Positions 1 to 7,451 of a stretch of 54,056 nt of DNA are shown in pieces. Each line of letters begins with the position of its first letter. Position 1 is the first letter of the stretch. The notes beneath the pieces are model-generated. The model did no database searches and was not told the DNA's origin. It saw nothing but the letters and a program-made list of their open reading frames with translations. Source of the DNA: Methanosarcinaceae archaeon (lineage in GTDB: Archaea > Halobacteriota > Methanosarcinia > Methanosarcinales > Methanosarcinaceae); contig JAIPUR010000018.1 of the NCBI GenBank assembly GCA_020055655.1, positions 1-54,056 on the forward strand, written 5' to 3'. Made by a program: the position numbers and the translations under genes.

Positions 1-429
1 ACGGCGTTGTCGAAGAAGGGAAGTAAGGGGTCTGAAGAGGTCATTCGTGATTACTTTATCAAGGATTTCTACAAGGATCATCTGAAGATGTATAAGAAGC
101 GGCCGATCTACTGGATGTTCACTTCGGGTAAGGGGAAGGCGTTCAATGCTCTGGTCTATATGCATCGGTATGATAAGACGACCCTTGCTAAGATGAGGAT
201 GGATTATTTGCTTGAGCTTGAGGCTAAGATGGATGCTCAGAGAGAGATGCTCAAGGATGAGGATGGCAAGAGTGCCCAGGAGAAGGCGAAGCTGAGTGCG
301 AAGATAGAGGAGGTCATGGCTTATGATGAGCTGTTGAAGAACAAGGCGGATGCTTATGTGGAGATCGATCTTGATGATGGGGTCAAGGTCAATTATGAGA
401 AGTTTAAGGGATTGGTTGGGAAATTGTGA
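1..429 (+). CDS. pglX: BREX-1 adenine-specific DNA methyltransferase PglX, C-terminal end (partial)
   Basis: The reading frame is open from the first base, so the gene starts upstream of the window; 142 codons are visible. The segment [20 protein letters not shown] followed by MHRYD matches the conserved C-terminal target-recognition part of PglX. PglX is the m6A methyltransferase that marks host DNA in BREX defence. The catalytic NPPY-type domain would lie outside the window. The tail is a charged coiled-coil-like helix (about residues 60-115), usual for the family. The order pglX, pglZ, brxL that follows supports the call. Base composition is visibly richer in G+C than the next gene. Confidence 0.9.
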
Positions 430-430
430 A

Positions 431-466
431 AATTGAAATCTGAATTGAAATCTGAATTAAAATCTG
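431..466 (+). repeat. 12-bp tandem repeat, three copies
   Basis: Three head-to-tail copies of AATTGAAATCTG (431-442, 443-454 and 455-466, the last with one G to A change) fill the gap between the pglX stop at 427-429 and the next gene. The unit length is a multiple of three. It is the kind of repeat that changes copy number by slippage. Confidence 0.85.
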
Positions 467-485
467 AATGTGGAAGGTACTAAAT

Positions 486-1475
486 ATGGATTATGATGAT
501 ATTGTTGATGAACGACCGGAGATATCGTTTCCCAATGAGGTTACGATAGCAGAAATACTTCTTCCGACTCCTGAAAGAATAATGAAAATTGATACTCTTG
601 AGGGGAGGGAAGAAGAATATAGTTATTATCTTGGTACATTAGAGTATACTATTGCTACTTATTATTACTTCCAGGACAAGAAACTAACAGACGCAAAGGT
701 TATCAAAATATTGAAACATTTACGTTCGAATCTTGATAAGACCCATGATTTTTTTGAAGATGCGCTTGAACTGGAATTATTTGAAAATTTAGTGAACGTT
801 ATTTTCGATGAACCAATAAGCACTCATGAATTTTTATTATTGATCGATTACATTCTCATATCAATTGACAATCGATCATGGATACCGGATACTCGGGCGT
901 ACTTGAAATGGGTTTGCTATTTCTTTGGAGTAAATTCACCAGAAGATGATCTAAAGCACGAGAACATGATTAAAAAACTTGCTAAAAAGTGTAATGTTCC
1001 TGACGATATGGTACCATCCCTTCTGGTCAGAAGTGGAATTGATGATGACGAAGAAGAAGATGAGATCGATCCTTATGAACAATTGAGCCCGGAAGATAAA
1101 GTTCGTTTCAAAGAATTCTTTTCATTGACCGATGAAAAAAGAATTAATTATTTACTTGAAAATAGTCCACAAGAATTTGATCTGTTTGCAGCATATATCT
1201 TAGAGCTTGAACTGAAAGATGAAATTAATGCATTAAAAAGTCTGGCAAAAAGATTTAGCAAGAAATTTGGTAATGAGTACAGACTTTATTCCAATATTGC
1301 AGACATTGTTTATTGTTGTCAACCAAATATTTCTAAGATATATCTTGACAAAGCCCTTAACGCTTTAGAAAAAACAGAAGACCTCTCGGAAGATGAAAAG
1401 ATCGAGGTTAGAGAAGAGCTTAAAAACAATATTAAAGCCTGTGATAAGATCTATGAAGCACTAAATGGAACTTGA
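486..1475 (+). CDS. Unrecognised acidic helical protein inside the BREX locus
   Basis: I do not recognise this family. An ATG at 468 is in frame, but 486 is the better start because GGAAGG (472-477) sits 8 bases before it, giving 329 residues. The protein is soluble, rich in Asp/Glu and Lys, with no signal peptide, membrane segment, nuclease motif or Walker motif. An Asp/Glu-rich linker (IDDDEEEDE, about residues 184-192) splits it into two helical halves; the C-terminal half looks like helical-hairpin (TPR-like) repeats. It lies between pglX and pglZ in the same direction, so it is probably co-transcribed with BREX. It is more A+T-rich than its neighbours, which suggests later insertion. It could be a BREX accessory or regulator, or a passenger defence or anti-defence gene. 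Confidence 0.75.
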   Translation: MDYDDIVDERPEISFPNEVTIAEILLPTPERIMKIDTLEGREEEYSYYLGTLEYTIATYYYFQDKKLTDAKVIKILKHLRSNLDKTHDFFEDALELELFENLVNVIFDEPISTHEFLLLIDYILISIDNRSWIPDTRAYLKWVCYFFGVNSPEDDLKHENMIKKLAKKCNVPDDMVPSLLVRSGIDDDEEEDEIDPYEQLSPEDKVRFKEFFSLTDEKRINYLLENSPQEFDLFAAYILELELKDEINALKSLAKRFSKKFGNEYRLYSNIADIVYCCQPNISKIYLDKALNALEKTEDLSEDEKIEVREELKNNIKACDKIYEALNGT

Positions 1476-1515
1476 ACACGAACATTCATTTTAGCAATTA
1501 ACTGTAAAGTCAACT

Positions 1516-1541
1516 ACCACCCGTTAAAAAGGGTGGTCTTT
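1516..1541 (+). terminator. Hairpin with T-run after the BREX-embedded gene
   Basis: ACCACCC (1516-1522) and GGGTGGT (1531-1537) form a 7-bp stem with an A-rich 8-base loop, followed by CTTTT. It is placed as a terminator or attenuator 40 bases after the stop. A hairpin of this form, next to AGTCAACT, also resembles the ends of IS200/IS605 elements, but no tnpA or tnpB is present. Confidence 0.5.
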
Positions 1542-1685
1542 TGCAGAAAGATGATAAAACTGAACTGAACTGAACAGTACTAATAGCAATCCATCTACAC
1601 AAGTTCACAGAATAATAGAAACCACTCAAAAATCCAATTCATAAGAAACTCAGTTGGCTTTAACACACTCACCGGATGCATCAAT

Positions 1686-4301
1686 ATGGTTAACGTAGAG
1701 AAAACACTCCAAACGCTTCTCAAGAAATTTGCCGAAAAGGAAGATTATGAAAAACGGAAGATAGTCTTTTGGTATGACAAGGATGAAACGGCAGACGAGG
1801 ATAGTCTTGCTCAAATAGAAGATGAGCTGGCAAAGCATGATATCAAAATAAAGGTACTTGCTGACAACTTTTTTGAGATCAAGAAGCTTCTGGAGGTTGA
1901 AGATACTGGTTCGAACTATTTGATCTACTCTCCGAAGGGAGAAAGAGATCCGGAGGATAACTGGCTTCTGGACATTCAGATGTATTCCAGTAGGTTCGAG
2001 AACAGTAGGATATCGGACATCAAGAGTGTGCTGGAAATAGATGGGTATGATCTTGATGAATTCCTTGAAAAGAGATACAAGTTCTTCGTCAGCAAAAAGA
2101 GAACTGAATCATTTTTACGGTGGTATCAGGCAGACTGGATACAAGAAGACTTCCTGCTGGGTTTTTTAGCTGTATTTTCCGGGTCGCAGTCAGTTGATCT
2201 CCGTGAGATCCTGAGGAACATGTTAAAAGCATCTCTTGAAGAGGACCATAACAAGATCTGGAATGATATCGCTAAGTTTGAACTTGAAAAGGACTTCTGG
2301 GGTCTTATAAAAAGTTATTTTGGATACAGTTCCGAAGCTCCAACACTTAAAAAGTTGTTCCTGAGCTTCATTATCACTCATGTTAGCAGGAACACGAAAC
2401 TGGACCTTAGCTCTTATGATGATTATATCAACAAAAAAGGCAACGAATGTGAGATCTTCACACGCAACTGGATGGACCATGCAAAGGATTCTGAAGTTTT
2501 TGACGAGTACTGCCAGGATGTTCTGACCGAGAACAACTCAAAGGTTGAGAACGACCTTAAGGCCATCATCAAGAGTAGCGATGTTGAAGAATATGTTGAA
2601 GCTGAAGCTACAACTTTATTCGACAGGGCAGTAATCAGTAGCATTGCCAAAGACCTTGAAAATGGCATGGAGGATTTCGAGGCTTACCTTGGTTGGATAG
2701 CAACAAGAAAGACAAAACATGGATATCCAAAATACAGTAACTTGTATCTTGCACTTGAAAATGCGGTGTTGCTTTATTCCTTTGCTAAGGATATCAAAGA
2801 TGAGGAACTCCATGGTAAAAAGCTGAAGGACCTTTTCCATGACTATGCTGACAAACATTACCTCATGGACCAGTATTATCGTAAATTCTATTACTACTTC
2901 GATAAGAACAGGGAAGAGGATATTCTTAAGAACACACGTGAGCAGGTAGAAAAGCTCTACAACAACAGGTTTATGGATCGTTTGCTCAGCCAGTGGAGCG
3001 AGGCCATAAACAACGAGACAAATGGCGTCTGGAACGTGGAACTCGTAGATCATCAGAACGAGTTCTACAAGAGGCATGTTGACAGGGTCCTGAGTCGTAA
3101 CGACAAGGATAAAATTGCAGTCATCATTTCTGATGCACTAAGGTATGAGGTTGCAGCGGAGCTTCAGGAAGTGCTGAACAAAGAGACCCTCGGAATAATA
3201 GAACTTGATACCATAGCAGGGTCTCTGCCTTCATATACTAAGTTAGGTATGGCAAGTTTGTTACCGCACAAAGTTCTTGAGTACAGAGAAGGTCGCATTT
3301 TTGCAGATAATATCAGTACTGAAGGCTTGCAGAATAGAGAAAAGATACTGCAAAATAACTTTGATGATTCAGTAGCAGTAAACTACAAAGAAGTACTAGA
3401 CCTGAAAAGAGAAGATGCAAAAGAAAAATTCAAAGGTAAACGTCTGTTCTACATATATCATGATAAGATCGATGCCACAGGTGACCATTCTGCTTCAGAA
3501 CACAATGTATTCAATGCAGCTGAAGAGACAATATATGATCTTAAAAGAATTATTTACAAAATGGCAAATTCACGTATCGTAAATAATTTTATAATTACAT
3601 CAGACCATGGCTTCATCTACAAACGTGATGACCTTGGAAATATTGATAAGCGAGATACTTCTGATTTTGACAAGCAAAAAATCATTGAATCTAATAAACG
3701 GTTTATTCTTAGCAAAGAAGATATTTTGTTGAAAAATACACACAAATTCAATATGTCAAATACATTTGAATCTGAGGACAATATATTCCTCTACACACCA
3801 CAGGCTGATCTCAGATTCAAATTGCAAGGTGCTGGAAGTAATTTTGTGCATGGGGGTGTATCACCTCAGGAAATTGTGTTACCTCTTCTTAGGTATAGTC
3901 ATAAAGAAACTGTAACTCTTGATAAGAAAGGAATCAAGAAAGGAAAAGTTGGACTTGCTTTGACAACACCTGCCAGGAAGATCACAAATACTACCTTCAA
4001 GGTTAGTTTTTTGCAAACAGAAAAAGTAACCGACAAGATGCTTCCTCGTCACTGTCGCATATCTCTGTGGGATGCTGATGGTAACAAAAGAATAAGTGAT
4101 GAAAAGGTTGTTATTGCTGATAGCACATCAGATGATGCAACCGAAAGAGTATATTCAGTGGTATTGACATTAACAAGTGACGTTGAAAATAAGGTTTATT
4201 ATCTTCATGCTATTGATGAAGACAAAAATGAACTTAACAGGGAAATATTTGACCCGATACCCTTCAACGTTGACCTCCTGGTAAAAGATGAATTTTTCTA
4301 A
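1686..4301 (+). CDS. pglZ: BREX-1 phosphatase-fold protein PglZ (type A)
   Basis: PglZ is a core BREX component of the alkaline-phosphatase superfamily, needed for defence and host methylation in characterised systems. The 871-residue length is normal for type A. The N-terminus (KRKIVFWYD, then an LLxV/E-rich region) is the family N-domain. The metal-binding core runs from about residue 475 (AVIISDALRYE) through SLPSYTKLGMASLLPH, YHDKIDATGD and TSDHGFIY (about 640) to HGGVSPQEIVLPLLR (about 720). A C-terminal beta-rich domain ends the protein. ATG 1686 follows GGATG at a usable distance. brxL starts 29 bases after its stop, so they share an operon. Confidence 0.95.
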   Translation: MVNVEKTLQTLLKKFAEKEDYEKRKIVFWYDKDETADEDSLAQIEDELAKHDIKIKVLADNFFEIKKLLEVEDTGSNYLIYSPKGERDPEDNWLLDIQMYSSRFENSRISDIKSVLEIDGYDLDEFLEKRYKFFVSKKRTESFLRWYQADWIQEDFLLGFLAVFSGSQSVDLREILRNMLKASLEEDHNKIWNDIAKFELEKDFWGLIKSYFGYSSEAPTLKKLFLSFIITHVSRNTKLDLSSYDDYINKKGNECEIFTRNWMDHAKDSEVFDEYCQDVLTENNSKVENDLKAIIKSSDVEEYVEAEATTLFDRAVISSIAKDLENGMEDFEAYLGWIATRKTKHGYPKYSNLYLALENAVLLYSFAKDIKDEELHGKKLKDLFHDYADKHYLMDQYYRKFYYYFDKNREEDILKNTREQVEKLYNNRFMDRLLSQWSEAINNETNGVWNVELVDHQNEFYKRHVDRVLSRNDKDKIAVIISDALRYEVAAELQEVLNKETLGIIELDTIAGSLPSYTKLGMASLLPHKVLEYREGRIFADNISTEGLQNREKILQNNFDDSVAVNYKEVLDLKREDAKEKFKGKRLFYIYHDKIDATGDHSASEHNVFNAAEETIYDLKRIIYKMANSRIVNNFIITSDHGFIYKRDDLGNIDKRDTSDFDKQKIIESNKRFILSKEDILLKNTHKFNMSNTFESEDNIFLYTPQADLRFKLQGAGSNFVHGGVSPQEIVLPLLRYSHKETVTLDKKGIKKGKVGLALTTPARKITNTTFKVSFLQTEKVTDKMLPRHCRISLWDADGNKRISDEKVVIADSTSDDATERVYSVVLTLTSDVENKVYYLHAIDEDKNELNREIFDPIPFNVDLLVKDEFF

Positions 4302-4330
4302 TACAATTATGAGATTAAGGACAGATAAAA

Positions 4331-6370
4331 ATGACAGACTCAGCATTAGACCTTGAAACAGATAGAAAACTCAATGAGTATTTCCCGGGAAGGGCTGTGA
4401 GGAAAGATCTCACTAAGCTTGTAAAGGTCGGGCATAATGTACCTGTCTATGTCCTTGAATATCTCCTGGGAACACACTGTGCCACAGATGATGAGGATCT
4501 CATTCAGGACGGTGTCCGTAAAGTCAAAAGGATACTCTCTGATAATTATGTTAGTCCCCATGAAGCGGAAAAGATCAAATCAAAGATACGTGAGAACGGA
4601 TATTACACCATTATCGATAACATTGTCGTAAAGCTGAACGAAAGAAGGGACATCTATGAAGCCACTTTCAACAACCTTGGGGTCTCAAATGTAGAAGTTG
4701 AATCCGAGTACGTGAAAAAATTTGACAAGCTTTTCGGAGGCGGGATCTGGTGTATTATAAAAATGGAATATGTACCGGATGCTGGTTATTCTCCCTTTGT
4801 CATAGCAGACCTGAAGCCCATACAGATCCCAAACATCAACGTCAATGAACTGATCGAGCAGAGGGAGAACTTCACCAAGGAAGAGTGGATAGATGTACTG
4901 TTAAGGACCATAGGAATGGAACCTACATTGCTGAAAGACAATGTAAAATGGCACCTTTTGGAACGTCTTGTACCACTCGTGGAAAGCAACTATAACCTGT
5001 GCGAACTCGGACCAAGGAGTACCGGTAAATCACACGTTTACAAGGAGATTTCCCCGAATTCCATTCTGATGTCCGGTGGACAGACCACTGTTGCAAACCT
5101 CTTCTATAACATGGGTACAAGGCAGGTAGGTCTTGTAGGTCACTGGGATGTTGTGGCCTTTGATGAAGTAGCAGGTATCAATTTCAAAGACAAGGATGGT
5201 ATACAGATCCTTAAAGATTACATGGCGTCAGGCTCCTTCGCACGTGGAAAGAACCAGATCAATGCCAATGCATCAATTGCTTTTGTCGGTAACGTCAACC
5301 AGAGCATCTCCTCATTGCTCAAGACGTTCCACCTCTTTGCACCCTTCCCGGATGCAATGAACAATGATAGTGCATTCTTTGACAGGATGCATTACTATCT
5401 TCCGGGCTGGGAAGTTCCAAAGTTCAGGCCGGAGCACTTCACTGATAGGTATGGATTTATTGTAGACTATCTGGCCGAATTCCTGAGAGAGATGAGGAAA
5501 AGGTCCTATAGTGACAATATGTTCAAATACTACAATCTGGGCAACAATCTCAACCAGAGAGATGTCATAGCTGTCAAGAAGACATTCTCCGGTTTGATGA
5601 AGCTCATCTATCCTGATGAGCAGGCAACCAAAGAAGAAATTCAGGAGATCCTGGAGTATTCTCTTGTAGGCAGGAGAAGGGTAAAGGAGCAGCTCAAAAA
5701 GATCGGAGGAATGGAATTCTTTGATGTTAATTTCTCCTATATCGACAATGAAGACATGAGTGAGAGCTTTGTCAATGTTCCTGAAAGTGGCGGAAATCAG
5801 ATAATTCCTCCGGGAATGCTAAAACCTGGTCAGTGCTTTGCTGTAGCAGCAACTGAGAATGGCAAGGTGGGCGTGTACAAGACTGAACTTCAGGTCACTG
5901 CAGGAAATGGGAAATATGATACTTCCGGGCTTGGTTCAAATTCGAAAACAAAAGAATCGATCAAAACCGCTGTGAACTACTTTAAAGCAAATGCAAAGTT
6001 CATCAGCCAATCGATATCTACCAAAGAAAGGGACTACTTCCTGAATGTGCAGGATATTTATGGTGTTGGAATGGCAGAAGGAGCAAATCTTGCTGCTTTT
6101 ATCGCTTTGTGTTCAGGTGCTCTCGAAAGACCTGTTACAGAGCAGACTGCGATCATTGGTACCATGACTATTGGGGGAGCAATACAGAGCGCTGAAAATC
6201 TGGCTGATCTGTTGCAGATTTGCTTGGATGCAGGTGCAAAGAAGATTTTGATTCCTGCAGCTGCTACTGTAAAATTAGGGACAGTGCCTCCAGAGCTTTT
6301 GAGCAAGTTCCAGTTGGCGTTTTATGATGAGCCGATAGATGCAGTGCAGAAAGCCTTGTTTATTGCTTGA
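4331..6370 (+). CDS. brxL: BREX-1 Lon-like AAA+ protein BrxL
   Basis: The 679-residue protein has the BrxL layout: an N-terminal domain with LNEYFPGRAVRKDL, an AAA+ domain with Walker A GPRSTGKSH (about residues 227-235) and Walker B VVAFDEVAG (about 274-282), and a C-terminal Lon-type fold (about 545-679). In the Lon part the positions of the catalytic Ser and Lys read GMAEGAN and IQSAENL, so no Ser-Lys protease dyad is visible. This fits the family, whose members are thought to act as DNA-bound ATPases rather than proteases. AAGGA lies 9 bases before the ATG. It is the last core BREX gene. Confidence 0.95.
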   Translation: MTDSALDLETDRKLNEYFPGRAVRKDLTKLVKVGHNVPVYVLEYLLGTHCATDDEDLIQDGVRKVKRILSDNYVSPHEAEKIKSKIRENGYYTIIDNIVVKLNERRDIYEATFNNLGVSNVEVESEYVKKFDKLFGGGIWCIIKMEYVPDAGYSPFVIADLKPIQIPNINVNELIEQRENFTKEEWIDVLLRTIGMEPTLLKDNVKWHLLERLVPLVESNYNLCELGPRSTGKSHVYKEISPNSILMSGGQTTVANLFYNMGTRQVGLVGHWDVVAFDEVAGINFKDKDGIQILKDYMASGSFARGKNQINANASIAFVGNVNQSISSLLKTFHLFAPFPDAMNNDSAFFDRMHYYLPGWEVPKFRPEHFTDRYGFIVDYLAEFLREMRKRSYSDNMFKYYNLGNNLNQRDVIAVKKTFSGLMKLIYPDEQATKEEIQEILEYSLVGRRRVKEQLKKIGGMEFFDVNFSYIDNEDMSESFVNVPESGGNQIIPPGMLKPGQCFAVAATENGKVGVYKTELQVTAGNGKYDTSGLGSNSKTKESIKTAVNYFKANAKFISQSISTKERDYFLNVQDIYGVGMAEGANLAAFIALCSGALERPVTEQTAIIGTMTIGGAIQSAENLADLLQICLDAGAKKILIPAAATVKLGTVPPELLSKFQLAFYDEPIDAVQKALFIA

Positions 6371-6467
6371 AAGTCTATCTTTTGTCTATGATAGAATTGA
6401 ATGTGATATTTAATTTGAGATCGATGCTGTTGATAGTTTACAAAAAGCGCAATCATGGGGATTTATC

Positions 6468-7451
6468 ATGGGAATTAATATGTGGATGGTAAGAGCTGGT
6501 GAAGATGCTTACTTGATCGAGAACTTCAAGAATGACAATTATGTTGCTATTGGATGGGAAGTTGGAGATATTAGTAAAGTTAAAAGTAAAGAAGAAGTAA
6601 AAGTACTTGTTGAACAAAAGTGTACATATTTTTCTAAAAAAAGCCAGATAAACAATGTAGCTGGGCAAATGAACAGATTCCTATTTGAGTTTAATAAAGA
6701 AGATTATGTAGTCTCATATGACCCTACAAATAGAACCTATATTGTCGGTCAGATTAAATCTGACTACGAGTACAACACCGAGTTGAGTGAATACTACCAT
6801 ATTCGAAGAGTCAACTGGTTGGGGGAAGTTAGAAGGGACGATCTTTCAACTTCAACCAGGAACAGTCTTGGAGCAATCTCGACTATATTTTCGATCAATG
6901 ATGATGCAGCAGGAGAAATTATCGTAATATTGGAAGGTAAAAAGTCACCTCTCAATGAAGTAATTGAAGAATTAAATGAAGAGGATCTAAAAGAAGATAT
7001 GGTATCCCGTGCCCATGAACTTATCAAAGATAATGTCATCAAACTCGATTGGGAAAATGTGGAAAAATTGGTTTCAGGCATCCTGAAATCAATGGGCTAC
7101 AAAACATTAATTACTGAACGTGGTGCAGATAGAGGTAAGGATATTGAAGCTTCTCCCGATGGTATGATGTTAGAGGAGCCACGAATATTAGCAGAGGTAA
7201 AACACCGTAATGGACAGATGGGATCCAAGGAAGTACGCAGTTTTCATTCTGTATTAAGAGGAAGAAAGGGATTGTATGTTTCTACCGGTGGTTTTTCTAA
7301 AGAAGCTAAGTATGAAGCAGAAAGAAGTAGTGATCAATTAACATTGATAGATTCTGACAGATTGGTCGAGTTGGTTATTCAAAACTACGATAATTTTGAT
7401 GTGGATACAAAGCTATTGATTCCTTTGGCAAAGATATATTGGCCTGCATAA
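6468..7451 (+). CDS. Mrr-like restriction endonuclease with N-terminal sensor domain
   Basis: The 327-residue protein ends in an Mrr-type PD-(D/E)XK nuclease: GADRGKDIEAS (about residue 220) supplies the Asp and AEVKHR (about 243) supplies the E-x-K, followed by GQMGSKEVRSFHSVL. The N-terminal 150 residues (MWMVRAGEDAY, then NYVAIGWEVGDIS) match the domain often placed before Mrr nucleases, probably a modified-base reader. Such type IV enzymes cut methylated or otherwise modified foreign DNA. The start at 6468 is chosen because GGGGA lies 7 bases upstream. It follows brxL by 97 bases in the same direction and probably extends the BREX island to phages with modified DNA (inference). Confidence 0.85.
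   Translation: MGINMWMVRAGEDAYLIENFKNDNYVAIGWEVGDISKVKSKEEVKVLVEQKCTYFSKKSQINNVAGQMNRFLFEFNKEDYVVSYDPTNRTYIVGQIKSDYEYNTELSEYYHIRRVNWLGEVRRDDLSTSTRNSLGAISTIFSINDDAAGEIIVILEGKKSPLNEVIEELNEEDLKEDMVSRAHELIKDNVIKLDWENVEKLVSGILKSMGYKTLITERGADRGKDIEASPDGMMLEEPRILAEVKHRNGQMGSKEVRSFHSVLRGRKGLYVSTGGFSKEAKYEAERSSDQLTLIDSDRLVELVIQNYDNFDVDTKLLIPLAKIYWPA

Follow-up and report, generated by a model that had tools for sequence, protein, structure and literature searches.

Exchangeable defence cargo between pglX and pglZ in a methanosarcinal BREX locus

The BREX locus and gene X

The DNA analysed here, referred to as the window, is a stretch of 54,056 nucleotides from a Methanosarcinaceae archaeon (contig JAIPUR010000018.1, assembly GCA_020055655.1), and its forward strand begins inside a type 1 BREX locus. 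The last 142 codons of the methyltransferase gene pglX (1..429, +; NF033452, E=6e-53; PADLOC PglX, E=6e-55), which are 91% identical in DNA to pglX of Methanococcoides seepicolus, are followed by a gene that we call X (486..1475, +), by pglZ of BREX-1 type A (1686..4301, +; TIGR02687, E=4.5e-250) and by brxL (4331..6370, +; TIGR02653, 1152.6 bits). The leader of pglZ (1555..1685, +) is conserved, being common to sister BREX loci (75-85% in DNA comparison). Directly 3′ of brxL lies a gene for an Mrr-type restriction endonuclease (6468-7451; PADLOC PDC-S02, Pfam Mrr_cat).

The locus is broken in this assembly, and the BREX system of this genome may be non-working. The contig end cuts pglX, whose first ~997 residues are missing, while brxB and a truncated brxC (1012 aa) are found on another contig (C4; G000:C4, L181 13868-17486), where they abut a truncated RACo gene. 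Some 3.5 kb up to the window start, namely the end of brxC and pglX residues 1-997, are missing from the assembly. The gap may stem from faulty assembly or from a genuine rearrangement of the locus.

The reading frame of X is open from position 468 and runs from an ATG at 486 to a stop at 1475. As a Shine-Dalgarno-like GGAAGG (472..477, +), read from the sequence, stands eight bases 5′ of this ATG, 329 residues is the likelier length. A terminator-like hairpin (ACCACCC/GGGTGGT) followed by CTTTT (1516..1542, +) is predicted from the sequence and from an RNA fold of 1501-1560, and would close the X unit. The stretch between the pglX stop and X also carries three tandem 12-bp repeats (AATTGAAATCTG, AATTGAAATCTG, AATTAAAATCTG; 431-466).

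A first-pass annotation, made from the letters alone, had described an acidic helical protein of 329 residues with no recognised domain, A+T-richer than its neighbours and encoded in their direction between pglX and pglZ. This description was borne out. The G+C content of X is 33.5%, against 46.2% in the pglX fragment, 38.7% in pglZ and 43.7% in brxL. The predicted protein has a pI of 4.48 and a net charge of -32, which is not exceptional in the window, since 3 of its 33 ORFs of more than 150 aa exceed X in acidity per residue. Searches of Pfam, NCBIfam and PADLOC returned no family for X, no catalytic motif or nuclease family and none of the nuclease or ATPase domains of PrrC; 29 aligned relatives gave no convincing match in Pfam or PADLOC, and no transmembrane segment was found in X. 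That X is a real gene follows from its homologues in 42 genomes and from dN/dS values of ~0.11-0.55 between relatives.

Predicted architecture of the X protein

Structure prediction, proposed at the outset together with a remote homology search, yielded a nearly all-helical AF2 model with two domains joined by a low-confidence linker. The N-domain (residues 20-185; 543..1040, +) is modelled on its own with a pLDDT of 92 and a pTM of 0.87. It is likely the functional core, because it contains nearly all residues that are invariant in alignments of the family (E42, E44, Y45, E53, D69, H114, E115, N129, R130, W132, Y139, K141 and W142) and occurs alone in some genera, as ORFs of 177-182 aa; its mean column identity is 66%, against 43% overall. 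Foldseek and VIA-align searches with this domain alone gave no clear PDB relative (best E 2.0, Z 4.4), which does not in itself prove a new fold, and a PDB sequence search with X returned nothing meaningful.

The acidic linker (residues 186-201; 1041..1088, +) has a net charge of -10 by charge count. The C-domain (residues 202-329; 1089..1472, +) is modelled as helical hairpins and resembles the TPR folds of CHIP and Sgt2, a binding type of fold. Against the TPR of CHIP, VIA-align gives a Z of about 9 and an rmsd of about 6, values that among helical repeats may reflect a common arrangement. Matches to Pfam TPR families fall solely below the cut-off, and the N-domain of X is unrelated to CHIP and Sgt2.

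Distribution and evolution of the family

By profile search, 42 of 112 Methanosarcinaceae genomes, from 9 of 14 genera, contain X, and tandem paralogues are frequent; the homologues show 30-47% identity. On genome contigs a scan with the single protein gave no matches and an alignment-based scan found the relatives. Within the window genus, among the genomes searched, X is present solely in this one. Beyond the Methanosarcinaceae the searches recovered just two things: an N-domain-like module in a fusion, from another family within the order, and one contig assigned to a Pacearchaeota bin. In the fusion (L197 3082-4188, L198 1956-2837) an otherwise different protein ends in a C-terminal module related to the N-domain. 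The contig (L078) encodes a divergent X of 387 aa alongside TPR, Bro-N and Schlafen genes, and the best relative of this Schlafen gene is found in an X-bearing Methanosarcina type I locus.

Between related X genes, dN/dS is 0.11-0.22 in restriction-modification contexts and 0.13-0.55 elsewhere, a difference that is insecure because most pairs of the second group diverged more recently. Judged by these ratios, the relatives, stand-alone copies included, are under purifying selection.

The tandem duplicates, the pseudogenes and the patchy presence of X are what one would expect of a selfish or addictive passenger on mobile islands with no role in defence. Remnants of a multi-copy element point the same way, as they adjoin X in two loci (L057 2541-3494, L058 10960-11910) and lie within about 6 kb of it in three others (L032 6530-7471, G349, G406). 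These remnants, beside Methanococcoides X genes at the three mapped positions, derive from a protein of ~890 aa that has no match in Pfam and is presumably, from its DTDS motif, a family B DNA polymerase of a mobile element. However, clustering of neighbouring genes revealed none that is constantly found with X, which a toxin-antitoxin pair would require, and a pattern scan of 2.9 million viral contigs found no relative of X. Its repeated placement in hsdM operons, described below, also argues against a mere passenger, and we regard this explanation as very improbable. A search with X in BFVD gave nothing significant, and in PHROG only weak matches to unnamed families (best E 5e-4).

The lack of a constant adjacent partner speaks against X as half of a toxin-antitoxin system. 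One candidate partner, a neighbour of 316-317 aa in M. seepicolus, proved to be a C-terminal remnant of the ~890 aa protein.

A variable slot after pglX

The nearest BREX relative of the window is a locus of M. seepicolus (L159), which shares 86% DNA identity over the pglZ leader, pglZ and brxL. The blastn blocks between the two cover window positions 3-429 and 1555-6371. Homology therefore ends at the pglX stop codon and restarts at 1555, which delimits an exchanged cargo slot (430..1554, +). In the window this slot holds X and the terminator-like hairpin; in M. seepicolus it holds a membrane-protein gene and a split KwaB-like homologue. We infer that the latter pair is Kiwa-like, kwaA being assigned, not by a family model, from its transmembrane segments and from a homologue in another locus (L145) that stands beside a kwaB-like gene. 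The Kiwa-like pair and X occupy the identical slot in sister loci, but Kiwa (KwaA-KwaB) and X have no similarity in sequence or architecture, and X lacks a transmembrane segment. L145 (763-3394) is itself a methanosarcinal BREX locus, with a TIR-like gene and then a Kiwa-like pair directly 3′ of pglX, and with pglZ divergent.

The first-pass annotation had taken pglZ to adjoin pglX normally. This fails in the present lineage, where 22 of 23 resolved Methanosarcinaceae BREX loci have at least one other gene after pglX. Elsewhere the cargo includes RloB with AAA_21, OLD with UvrD, TIR, Schlafen AlbA_2, a DUF234 ATPase, HD, SMC-like and Gabija-like genes, and so unrelated defence genes fill the slot of X in closely related BREX loci. 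PglX is split into two ORFs (about 620 and 570 aa) in ten methanosarcinal BREX loci; eight of these (L150-L154, L156-L158) carry a Schlafen AlbA_2 gene between the halves and two (L155, L162) do not.

Among 32 Methanosarcinaceae genomes with PglZ, X lies between pglX and pglZ only in the window genome and in one other (G212), whose BREX locus is decayed and contains an IS66 transposase and two copies of X, one of them frameshifted. On a tree of X, which carries a long-branch attraction warning for the window row, the three BREX copies require at least two label changes, so that X entered BREX more than once or by replacement. The survey for homologues at the same position, which the annotation had advised, thus returned just these two genomes. 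This rules out X as a core component of BREX type 1 or a BREX-specific accessory. Of the earlier idea of a new BREX accessory, an accessory in a defence slot stands; specificity for BREX does not, given the two genomes, the main link to type I restriction-modification and the many stand-alone copies.

Association with type I restriction-modification

The significant association of X is with type I restriction-modification. At seven loci (L031, L036, L039, L042, L044, L048 and L166) X is part of an intact operon with hsdM and hsdS. It lies less than 2.5 kb from an intact hsdM in 7 of the 42 X-bearing genomes, where 0.23 are expected by chance; the P of about 3e-9 treats the genomes as independent, which they are not: the seven loci reduce to two HsdM lineages (about 56% mutual identity) and contain three X clades. 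Sixteen further copies adjoin fragments of hsdM, hsdS or hsdR. For 27 of 58 copies there is no recognised defence gene within 7 kb, in part through short contigs; context labels rest on such contigs in several genomes, and the ORFs of relatives were called mechanically. A housekeeping role, with homologues mainly outside defence loci, had been named as the outcome to set against a function in defence. Despite the 27 copies we saw no sign of it, X being patchy in presence, with pseudogenes and tandem copies.

The position of X shifts around nearly identical hsdM genes, and hsdM genes about 91% identical occur without X, accompanied instead by Schlafen remnants (L183) or a PIN gene (L184). X is therefore an exchangeable passenger of these loci and is ruled out as an obligate type I subunit.

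The ease with which X is dispensed with and shuffled around hsdM would also suit an independent antiviral gene that makes no contact with methyltransferases and is merely harboured by restriction-modification and BREX loci, as the Kiwa-like and Gabija-like genes are. The purifying selection on stand-alone copies agrees with this, as does the fact that other cargo of the slot consists of self-sufficient defence modules. It gives no reason, however, for the recurrence of X next to methyltransferase genes in particular and not across defence islands in general, and we consider it rather unlikely, while still the closest rival of the explanation preferred below.

A regulator of the methyltransferase/restriction complex that tempers HsdM or PglX, perhaps as a DNA mimic like Ocr, is distinctly improbable; a self-protection regulator was one of the readings offered by the first-pass annotation. 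The family is acidic (pI mostly 4.2-5) and X stands beside both types of methyltransferase that Ocr inhibits (PMC7261183). Against this, the acidity is ordinary for the genome, with much of it in the linker and the N-terminal tail, X persists without a neighbouring methyltransferase, and closely related hsdM loci manage without X. Acidic anti-restriction proteins of the Ocr/ArdA type are likewise helical, and the same targets, type I and BREX methyltransferases, are suspected for X; X differs in being cellular, larger and two-domain, and any inhibition by it is putative.

Discussion

X is swappable defence cargo beside methyltransferase genes, namely hsdM and, in two genomes, pglX, since sister BREX and hsdM loci hold Kiwa-like, PIN, Schlafen or other genes in its place. 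The suggestion of an accessory or stand-alone defence gene has therefore held up well: sister slots contain Kiwa-like, RloB, Gabija-like, TIR and Schlafen genes, and X recurs beside hsdM. We conclude that X is probably a back-up defence gene.

There are precedents for such an arrangement. PrrC is encoded within a type IC locus and comes into action on inhibition of restriction, and genes of the PrrC/Rlo type are, like X in its seven intact type I loci, embedded in the hsd operon beside hsdM as accessories to restriction (PMC12707154). The inhibitor Ocr binds PglX as well as type I complexes (PMC7261183). The N-terminal bundles of PglX and HsdM are homologous, and back-up nucleases have been recruited by BREX loci (PMC12839542). 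X resembles such auxiliary effectors in lying inside the BREX operon between core genes, where Schlafen, OLD/TOPRIM, TIR or Kiwa-like genes can take its place. There are also differences. X has neither an ABC-ATPase nor a nuclease domain such as PrrC has, its activation by inhibition of restriction-modification is hypothetical, and it matches no family among the nucleases listed in the BREX effector survey (PMC12839542). No paper was found that links hsdM and hsdS with Methanosarcina, or BREX and TPR with archaea.

The explanation we tentatively prefer, at somewhat below even odds, is that X is exchangeable cargo that works as a PrrC-like guard or back-up effector by docking on methyltransferase complexes. 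The TPR-like C-domain would dock on the HsdM or PglX complex, or on a viral protein that targets this complex. Much as with PrrC, inhibition of the complex would then activate the conserved helical N-domain, which might damage either the virus or its infected host cell. Stand-alone copies could work in trans, on whatever other methyltransferases their genome encodes.

Several observations speak for such a guard: the excess of genomes with X near an intact hsdM, spread over three X clades; the Kiwa-like pair in the sister slot; the replacement of X by PIN or Schlafen genes within one HsdM subfamily; and a conserved core in the N-domain joined to a C-domain that the model suggests is of a binding type. 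Against it stand the lack of a recognised catalytic motif or nuclease family, the nearly half of all copies that have no recognised defence gene within 7 kb and the reduction of the hsdM-linked genomes to two HsdM lineages; contact between X and HsdM or PglX is putative. In a bolder version, which we consider unlikely, both the fold and the biochemical activity of the N-domain are new, and X is a guard, common to type I restriction-modification and BREX, with which archaea sense that adenine methyltransferases are being inhibited.

The X family is missing from the copies of Pfam, NCBIfam and PADLOC used here, and it travels with two methyltransferase-based defence systems of methanogens. The variable slot after pglX, together with the surroundings of hsdM, is a place to mine for further archaeal defence genes. 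Should X indeed guard methyltransferases, archaea would have in it their own counterpart of PrrC, common to restriction-modification and BREX.
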